A stretch of 64,000 nt of DNA from Roseomonas alba. Its GTDB lineage: Bacteria; Pseudomonadota; Alphaproteobacteria; Acetobacterales; Acetobacteraceae. The notes beneath the pieces were generated by a model. The model was not told where the DNA came from. It did not search any database and saw only the letters and a list, made by a program, of their open reading frames with translations. Numbering within the stretch: the stretch's first letter is position 1; every line of letters begins with the position of its first letter. Positions 8,579 to 9,547 of this stretch are shown here, in pieces. The position numbers were made by a program, and so were the translations under genes. The stretch is taken from assembly GCF_019430885.1 (NCBI RefSeq), contig NZ_JAHYBZ010000004.1, positions 186,001 through 250,000 on the forward strand, given 5' to 3'.

Positions 8579-8908
8579 TCAGGCGCGCGCCTGCTCCATC
8601 TCCCGCTGGAGGAAGAAGTTCAGCACGGTGCGCAGCGCCGCGATGGCGGCGAGCTTGCCGATCTCGTCCCAGCCCGGGGCGATGGCGGTGCGCAGGATAT
8701 CGGCGGCGAGGGCGAATTCCAGCGCCAGCATCAGCCAGCGCGCGAGGTGCAGCCGGACCGCATCGCTGCGGATGTCATTCGCGTGCCCGAAAAAGGCGCG
8801 CAGGAAGCCCAGCACGGCCTGGATGACGGCGAGGGACACGACCAGCACCGCTGCCGCCTCAACGGCGATGGCGGCCCATTCGGTGATGCCAAGGATCAGG
8901 TCGTGCAT
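8579..8908 (-). CDS. DUF1622-type small membrane protein
   Basis: A 109-residue protein of the DUF1622 type, with three hydrophobic segments: EWAAIAVEAAAVLVVSLAVI near the start, LARWLMLALEFALAADIL in the middle and a weaker one at IGKLAAIAALRTVLNFFL. The sequence LHLARWLMLALEFALAADI with the preceding arginine is characteristic. It is a presumed inner-membrane protein of unknown function. Its stop abuts the racemase stop (convergent). Upstream on the same strand lies the hairpin array, so its transcript may start inside or beyond that array. Confidence 0.8.
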   Translation of the reverse strand: MHDLILGITEWAAIAVEAAAVLVVSLAVIQAVLGFLRAFFGHANDIRSDAVRLHLARWLMLALEFALAADILRTAIAPGWDEIGKLAAIAALRTVLNFFLQREMEQARA

Positions 8909-8952
8909 TCGCCGCCGGTATCACGGCCCGACATCCGTGTCGCCCGCCTATC

Positions 8953-9253
8953 GGCCCGATGCCCTGCATCGGGCCGGGAGCACGAAGCGCGACTGCGCCC
9001 GGACCGACAGCACGCCCCGGCGCACCAGTGCAGGGTGCGAAGGCAAGCCGCGCGGATGCGCGGCGCCCGCCGCCTGAGGGCTCAACCAAAGACTCGGATC
9101 GCGGCCTTGCCGCGATCCGGGAGCGCAGGGCGCGACCGCGCGCAGACCGACAGCGTTCCCTCGCGCATCAGCACAGGGCCGCGGATGCGGCCCGCCCACC
9201 GGCTGAGGGACGCACAAAGACCCCGTAAGAACCGCCTGCGGCGGTTCTTACGG
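8953..9253 (-). repeat. Two-unit tandem array of covarying hairpins
   Basis: Two diverged copies of a 135-143 bp unit are bracketed by three perfect inverted repeats of unrelated sequence. These are 8953-8975 (10-bp stem, CCT loop), 9096-9118 (10-bp stem GGATCGCGGC, CTT loop) and 9223-9253 (14-bp stem, TGC loop). Each unit also has an internal 7-bp hairpin with the same GGAT loop but different stems: GCCGCGC/GCGCGGC at 9047-9064 and GGGCCGC/GCGGCCC at 9176-9193. Paired changes keep both stems intact. Read on the minus strand, the outer hairpins at 9253 and 9118 are each followed by GTCTTTG and then CCCTCAG, and both units end GCTCCC. No coding sequence explains it. A structured RNA or a mobile hairpin element are the main options. 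Confidence 0.75.
9223..9253 (-). terminator. 14-bp stem hairpin at the end of the small iron-linked gene
   Basis: Arms CCGTAAGAACCGCC (9223-9236) and its exact complement (9240-9253) are separated by TGC. The stop codon of the 9248-9487 gene lies inside the stem. On the minus strand the stem is followed by GGGGTCTTTG, a weak T-tract, so intrinsic termination is plausible. It is also the first outer hairpin of the tandem array, so termination may not be its only role. Confidence 0.5.
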
Positions 9254-9487
9254 ACAGTCGCAGCCGTCGGTCGGGCCGGTGTCCTGGCGGATGATGTGAT
9301 GGTCGATCCACTCGGCAACCAGGCGCTGCGCCTCGTTCACCGAGGATTCCGGATGGTGGATGCGATACAGCGCCGTGCAGGCCCGGAAGGCCGGCATGTC
9401 GCCATTGCCCTGCTCGCGCAGTTCCCGATAGGCCGTGACCACGGCGCGTTCGCAGCGTCGCGCGATGTGGCTGAAATCCCGGCCCAT
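9248..9487 (-). CDS. Small hypothetical protein behind a Fur-like site
   Basis: A 79-residue protein that I do not recognise. It is rich in charged residues, predicted mainly helical, with no signal peptide, and ends DTGPTDGCDCP with two cysteines near the C-terminus; a single further Cys pair (RRCERAV, FRACTAL) lies in the body. GAGGAG sits six bases before the ATG, a strong ribosome-binding site. Fur-like palindromes occupy 9511-9547, just where its promoter should be, so iron-responsive expression is likely. The terminal Cys-x-Cys might bind a metal, but that is speculation. Confidence 0.7.
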   Translation of the reverse strand: MGRDFSHIARRCERAVVTAYRELREQGNGDMPAFRACTALYRIHHPESSVNEAQRLVAEWIDHHIIRQDTGPTDGCDCP

Positions 9488-9510: not shown

Positions 9511-9547
9511 TGAGAGTCATTCGCAATTGCAGTCGAGAATCGTTCTC
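9511..9547 (-). promoter_or_regulatory. Tandem Fur-like operator
   Basis: Two iron-box-like motifs lie 24-60 bp upstream of the 79-residue gene. The distal one is the perfect palindrome GAGAATCGTTCTC (9535-9547). The proximal one, read on the minus strand, is TGCGAATGACTCTCA (9511-9525), which agrees at 13 of 15 positions with the site at 44434-44448. Both resemble the 7-1-7 Fur-box pattern. The controlling protein (Fur, Irr or another) is not in the window. Confidence 0.55.

Follow-up and report, generated by a model that had tools for sequence, protein, structure and literature searches.

An intergenic, palindrome-rich repeat with exactly paired but variable stems in Roseomonas alba and related bacteria

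Covariation between the two arms of a helix is the standard evidence for a functional RNA structure, and a short array of hairpins in Roseomonas alba raises the question of whether this evidence always holds. The array lies in a window (the whole stretch of DNA analysed here) of 64,000 nucleotides, positions 186,001 to 250,000 of contig NZ_JAHYBZ010000004.1. An earlier note left open whether the array works as RNA, as a mobile DNA hairpin, or as an attenuator of the DUF1622 gene that follows it. Of these possibilities, a DNA-level repeat fits the data best and an RNA role is possible at co-opted sites, while attenuation of the DUF1622 gene finds no support. The array probably represents two units of an intergenic DNA repeat that is non-autonomous, rich in palindromes and present in many copies in Neoroseomonas-type bacteria, and whose copies would exchange sequence in blocks. 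The element could be a test case for covariation generated at the DNA level and, if this is true, a natural counter-example to covariation as proof of functional RNA.

The array and its neighbouring genes

The array consists of two head-to-tail units (as read on the minus strand) between a gene for a protein of 79 amino acids and the DUF1622 gene. Its features are given below in window coordinates, the hairpins and edges of the units being read directly from the sequence.

8579..8908, minus strand: downstream gene, DUF1622 (PF07784)
8949..9092, minus strand: unit 1, full-length copy (covariance-model match 194949-195092 of the contig, E 6.7e-32)
8953..8975, no strand assigned: terminal hairpin of unit 1
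8987..8998, minus strand: conserved core GCGCGGTCGCGC of unit 1, with one mismatch
9047..9064, no strand assigned: internal hairpin of unit 1 with a GGAT loop, which reads ATCC on the minus strand
9074..9080, plus strand: Shine-Dalgarno-like edge CTGAGGG of unit 1, here without a start codon behind it
9092..9221, minus strand: unit 2, copy lacking 14 nt (covariance-model match 195092-195221 of the contig, E 1.6e-22)
9096..9118, no strand assigned: terminal hairpin of unit 2
9130..9141, minus strand: conserved core GCGCGGTCGCGC of unit 2
9176..9193, no strand assigned: internal hairpin of unit 2, loop GGAT
9203..9209, plus strand: Shine-Dalgarno-like edge CTGAGGG of unit 2
9223..9253, minus strand: hairpin outside both units, overlapping the stop codon, probably the upstream gene's terminator
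9248..9487, minus strand: upstream gene, 79 amino acids, without a Pfam match

The three perfect inverted repeats and two diverged unit copies noticed earlier are indeed present, together with the GTCTTTG, CCCTCAG and GCTCCC blocks of the minus strand and the two internal 7-bp hairpins, GCCGCGC-GGAT-GCGCGGC (9047-9064) and GGGCCGC-GGAT-GCGGCCC (9176-9193), whose differing stems are fully paired. The proposal that all three repeats bracket the units holds for the two 10-bp terminal hairpins, GGCCCGATGC/GCATCGGGCC in unit 1 (8953-8962/8966-8975) and GGATCGCGGC/GCCGCGATCC in unit 2 (9096-9105/9109-9118). It does not hold for the 14-bp repeat (arms 9223-9236/9240-9253), which does not form the end of a unit. 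It overlaps the stop codon (TAA) of the upstream gene (9248-9487) and has a T-rich stretch after it, as expected of the upstream gene's terminator, and is most likely the own terminator of that gene. Over 85 nt the units share 72% identity, and 14 nt are missing from unit 2. About 50 bp upstream of the start of the 79-amino-acid gene there is a further palindrome, GAGAATCGTTCTC (9535-9547), that resembles an iron-regulator (Fur-like) box.

When read as on the minus strand of the window (R sense, P being the opposite strand), a unit of about 142 bp comprises a T-rich 5' edge, CCCTCAG, the internal hairpin with an ATCC loop, a variable middle, the conserved core, and the terminal hairpin. The core has the form GCGCGGTCGCGC...GCGCTCCC, also given as GGTCTGGGCGCGGTCGCGC..GCGCTCCC.

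The idea of an array that attenuates transcription of the DUF1622 gene draws on its position, about 40 bp before the start codon. DUF1622 homologues are found in 10 of the 35 genus genomes, R. alba included, and at the other nine loci the best match (E 0.038) falls short of a confident element. Close homologues (80-85% identity) exist in three genomes, G020, G021 and G030, again with no element nearby. In G030 the genes that flank the array in the window lie about 60 nt from each other, with no element in the gap, which fits gain or loss alike, and in G020 and G021 they are separated by about 1 kb of other sequence. The array is thus local and no general regulator of DUF1622 genes; since elements also adjoin many unrelated genes, the attenuator is a most improbable explanation.

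Copy number, host range and placement of the family

In the R. alba genome, BLAST returns 27 matches including the query itself (best other E = 1.2e-60), and a covariance model built from 22 units, where the earlier note had proposed one from two, returns 35, bearing out a family. The same model gives 55 matches in G020, 71 in G021, and 139, among 150 candidates scored, in the complete relative genome G009. Strong matches (best E <1e-20) occur in 16 of the 35 genus genomes, R. alba included, with 13 to at least 54 copies per genome; in the remaining 19 there is no match, or the best one does not go below 2.1e-8. Across the order, 18 of 150 genomes match at 1e-9 (21 candidates scored per genome), nine from this genus and nine from three other genera of the same family, a spread over 4 of 41 genera. 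Among the matches listed, the exact core is carried by Roseomonas and Neoroseomonas species and by MAGs. A plasmid collection searched with one unit gave no match, and neither did Rfam within the window (best sub-threshold E 0.51); no curated RNA family covers the element. As for genome size, the larger genus genomes (4.8-6.4 Mb) are repeat-rich and the smaller ones (2.6-4.2 Mb) hold few or no copies, with G003 intermediate (4.2 Mb, 13 copies).

Arrays recur in relatives as well. The 95 strongest of the 139 copies in G009 form 78 sites, consisting of 65 singles, 10 pairs, 2 triples, and 1 quadruple. Placement figures are taken from this genome, with genes called by an own codon-usage script, because the orientation bias in a sample of 115 elements was inflated by convergent pairs and by picking with a pattern. 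Only 5 of the 78 sites fall inside gene calls. Neighbour orientations in R sense are ++ at 34 sites, +- at 20, -- at 18, and -+ at 4, with a neighbour missing at two; divergent gaps thus account for 4 of the 76 sites that have a called gene on either side. In an 80-kb background, 10 of 36 gaps of at least 60 nt are divergent. The 5' edge is tight, lying within -12..+13 of a co-oriented stop codon in 35 of 52 cases and within -11..+1 of a start codon in 15 of 21, and the 3' edge is loose, coming as near as 13 nt to a gene in only 9 of 73 cases. The strand on which the element lies relative to its neighbours differs between sites. Copies lie at gene boundaries, where abutting a stop codon with the 5' edge may make them tolerable beside genes, and many persist there across species. 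A shared class of host genes was considered and rejected: 93 Pfam families are represented among the 51 upstream neighbours in G009, and even the two most frequent have 3 members each.

Two sites could be followed between species. In 5 of 5 species the element separates a gene for a solute-binding protein (PF13416) from one for a permease (PF00528). These five are all those with a full-length match to this flank, and the internal stem is different in each. Upstream of smpB, 30 loci were compared, 15 from element-rich and 15 from element-poor genomes (the sixteenth element-rich genome, G011, was left out), and the element is found in 13 of the former (G002 and G013 being without it) and in none of the latter. 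Element sites, as these two cases show, are old.

Paired changes in the stems

Covariation extends across many loci, a result that the earlier note had named as supportive. In 22 copies from R. alba, 11 of the 30 consensus pairs are changed on both sides. Of the 11 pairs with the strongest mutual information across 126 distinct sequences (125-150 nt), 9 belong to the two hairpins and two are not base pairs. Stems were counted with a search rule that allows at most one interior mismatch and handles G-U and A-C alike, hairpins failing it being left out. Under this rule, 186 of 234 distinct elements have an internal hairpin (35 stems, 158 perfect), and the same number have a terminal one (44 stems, 141 perfect). 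At the 13 orthologous smpB leaders, all 129 scored cells of the internal helices are paired (128 Watson-Crick, 1 G-U, and no other), 28 of them changed on both sides. The covariation score there is 0.556, compared to 0.133 +/- 0.037 in shuffles, and 0 of 500 shuffles reach it; the number of double-change pairs (6) and of further pair types (7) is unexceptional, being reached in 84 and 43 of the 500 shuffles, respectively. The terminal stem was left out of this score because 4 of the 13 rows fail to register in the alignment.

These flawless helices fit selection on structure at smpB, and together with the strong covariation they speak for a structured RNA element, either a 3'UTR stabiliser or a 5' leader, with hairpins under RNA selection. 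The positions just behind stop codons or ahead of start codons point the same way, and so does the intercistronic site within the transporter gene pair, comparable to the REP between malE and malF. However, a helix kept as RNA should tolerate G-U on the transcribed strand and not A-C, and the element shows no family-wide G-U signature. On the R strand its hairpin mismatches are G-U 14, A-C 23, and other 36, against G-U 16, A-C 1, and other 14 in terminator-like hairpins of the same loci (39 hairpins, 8 perfect; Fisher p = 9e-5) and 5 G-U and 0 A-C in 12 tRNAs. A looser count of the element gives G-U 31 to A-C 29, and a stricter terminator control gives 9:0. The ratio of 14:23 against 16:1 suggests that pairing is not kept by stepwise RNA selection. 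When copies are sorted by neighbour, those in R sense (G-U 11, A-C 14) look unlike RNA selection, and those in P sense (2:5 on R, hence 5:2 favouring G-U on the P strand) are too few to decide. All these mismatch counts are small, and if perfect stems were passed on as blocks, mismatches of every type would be rare.

Other observations also weigh against RNA selection. Stem pairs at smpB switch from G-C to C-G by a route that does not pass through G-U, strand choice varies by site, and an unusual fold stability was rejected, as five folded stretches have energies within those of shuffles (z -1.46 to +0.56). Taken with the multi-pair changes between sister species described below, these results do not uphold covariation as the signature of a selected RNA, and a structured RNA element is an unlikely explanation for the family. 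A long-range CAGAC/GTCTG helix was also discarded, its observed pairing being equal to the expected one.

Block exchange between copies offers a different source of matched changes. Orthologous copies have a mean identity of 0.741 over 26 full-length pairs, compared to 0.702 +/- 0.058 for 150 random pairs. Between the sister species G020 and G021 (30 of 55 copies against 30 of 71), orthologous copies are 0.74-0.99 identical, with flanks mostly at 90-98%. Six listed pairs reach 0.94-0.99, so that exchange is not universal. Two orthologous pairs of a shorter, 104-nt form reach 0.97-0.98 identity, similar to that of their flanks and unlike many full-length copies; this form is recurrent in both species (e.g., G020:C1:548019-548122 and G021:C12:467759-467862). 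At four places the number of units differs, one in one sister species and two in the other. Stems also change in place: in the pair L376/L420, a matched change from G-C to T-A and loop bases differ in the terminal hairpin, and in L374/L402 the outer pair differs along with several matched stem pairs. Such changes would arise if copies or array units trade blocks of sequence, by gene conversion or array recombination, although among the sites compared no clean recent insertion or donor-matched exchange tract was demonstrated. A block holding both arms of a hairpin would change the stem in matched pairs. Tandem arrays also grow and shrink. Two candidates for a clean empty site in G020/G021 were dismissed, one looking like an old copy in decay and the other like the loss of array units.

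The main alternative to exchange between copies is palindrome repair, in which template switching at replication transfers a mutation from one arm to its partner, generating covariation without selection or exchange. It would account for comparable numbers of G-U and A-C mismatches and for single matched changes such as that of L376/L420. It sits poorly with L374/L402, where neighbouring non-stem bases have changed along with several pairs, and the recurrence of the same stem sequences in many copies fits copying between elements better; as the general source of the paired changes it appears improbable.

The 5' edge at start codons and comparison with known repeats

Some copies probably now serve as co-opted leaders or spacers between cistrons. 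The opposite strand of the edge (CTGAGGG) could serve as a Shine-Dalgarno sequence wherever it abuts a start codon. In the 13 genomes with the element upstream of smpB, GAGGG is invariant, at 8-10 nt from the likely start in eight of them and at 3, 3, 4, 14, and 18 nt in the others (starts inferred). With this variable spacing, GAGGG is the likely Shine-Dalgarno sequence of smpB rather than a demonstrated one in every species. Among the 15 start-adjacent sites of G009, the P-strand edge is GAGGG in 12, followed by ATG or GTG after 7-13 nt, and GAGCG, GAGGC, and AAGGG in the other three. The genes adjacent to these edges include hslU, dnaJ, and smpB; a plain count of proteostasis genes gives 3 of 15 (L298:1641, L357:1641, and L335:1504). 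A dispersed repeat thus apparently supplies the ribosome-binding site of conserved genes, in the case of smpB in 13 of 15 element-rich genomes, and may in this way affect their expression. It is tentatively proposed, with somewhat less than even confidence, that this is a RAYT-independent family whose stem covariation comes from DNA-level recombination or palindrome repair, and that it works as a portable cassette for gene boundaries: one edge would fit behind stop codons, and the other strand of this edge would provide a Shine-Dalgarno sequence from which genes such as smpB, dnaJ, and hslU now start.

Being palindromic, intergenic, dispersed in many copies, and rare in divergent promoter regions, the element behaves like REP/BIME repeats, and by test it is no REPIN. 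Many REP/BIME copies of E. coli lie close behind stop codons; the present element shares this position, but differs in sequence, size, and host, and in the putative Shine-Dalgarno role of the opposite strand of its edge. Integron attC sites also keep structure over sequence and sit just after stop codons; compared by description only, the present element is alike in both respects, but is dispersed and forms no cassette array. REPs within 15 nt of a stop codon are reported, in the RepRanger paper (PMC12306157), to affect translation.

GTAG/CGTC REPs (PMC3733652) are single hairpins of 20-40 bp with a GTAG or CGTC tag, mostly located downstream of genes, between unidirectional or convergent ORFs. 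The CGTC families are mostly alphaproteobacterial and tabulated without a transposase association, their repeats are mainly head-to-head dimers, and a CCTC variant of the tag is described. The present element is likewise palindromic, intergenic, and of high copy number, similarly placed relative to genes, with complementary changes in its stems. Unlike those repeats, it is a composite of about 142 bp that combines two hairpins with a conserved core, arranged in head-to-tail arrays at a fixed period, and its edge is CCCTCAG, with a stem and loop plan that differs despite the CCTC variant.

REPINs are described (PMC3116915) as pairs of inverted REPs linked to a RAYT gene, about 100 bp long, dispersed, and sometimes clustered in tandem. 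The present element is also palindromic, dispersed, and sometimes tandem, and its intergenic location, high copy number, and array formation would suit an element of the REPIN type that owes its mobility to a RAYT transposase. In contrast, no inverted doublet or Y1 transposase accompanies it, its two hairpins are mutually unrelated, and its units run head to tail. The Y1_Tnp domain was found in only 1 of the 35 genus genomes, the element-poor G027, and in 0 of the 16 element-rich ones, in a search that was positive in 5 of 14 named control genomes. A present-day RAYT as mover is thus largely refuted, and a REPIN-type origin is very hard to sustain. The spread of the repeat would instead depend on some other transposase. 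A search with half models for a parent transposon with the same ends, as would be expected of a MITE (an internally deleted transposon), covered the loci from L080 on and the window. It returned 18 lone 5' and 38 lone 3' halves and a single pair, whose halves are separated by 138 bp, and no parent transposon was found in these loci.

The element is unusual in its stems, which vary freely yet pair exactly, in its lack of an RNA signature, in its turnover at fixed sites, and in having an edge capable of serving as a Shine-Dalgarno sequence. No description of such a repeat was found in the open-access Roseomonas and Neoroseomonas literature; judging from these open-access searches, the family is apparently unpublished. 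Some copies additionally hold a second palindrome of about 40 nt, with arms of the CCCAT/ATGGG-like or CCCAAT/ATTGGG type, in or near the internal loop (e.g., L016:1498-1685 on G000:C4, L159:1123-1304, and G020:C1:481200-481315), which is perhaps a nested repeat family.
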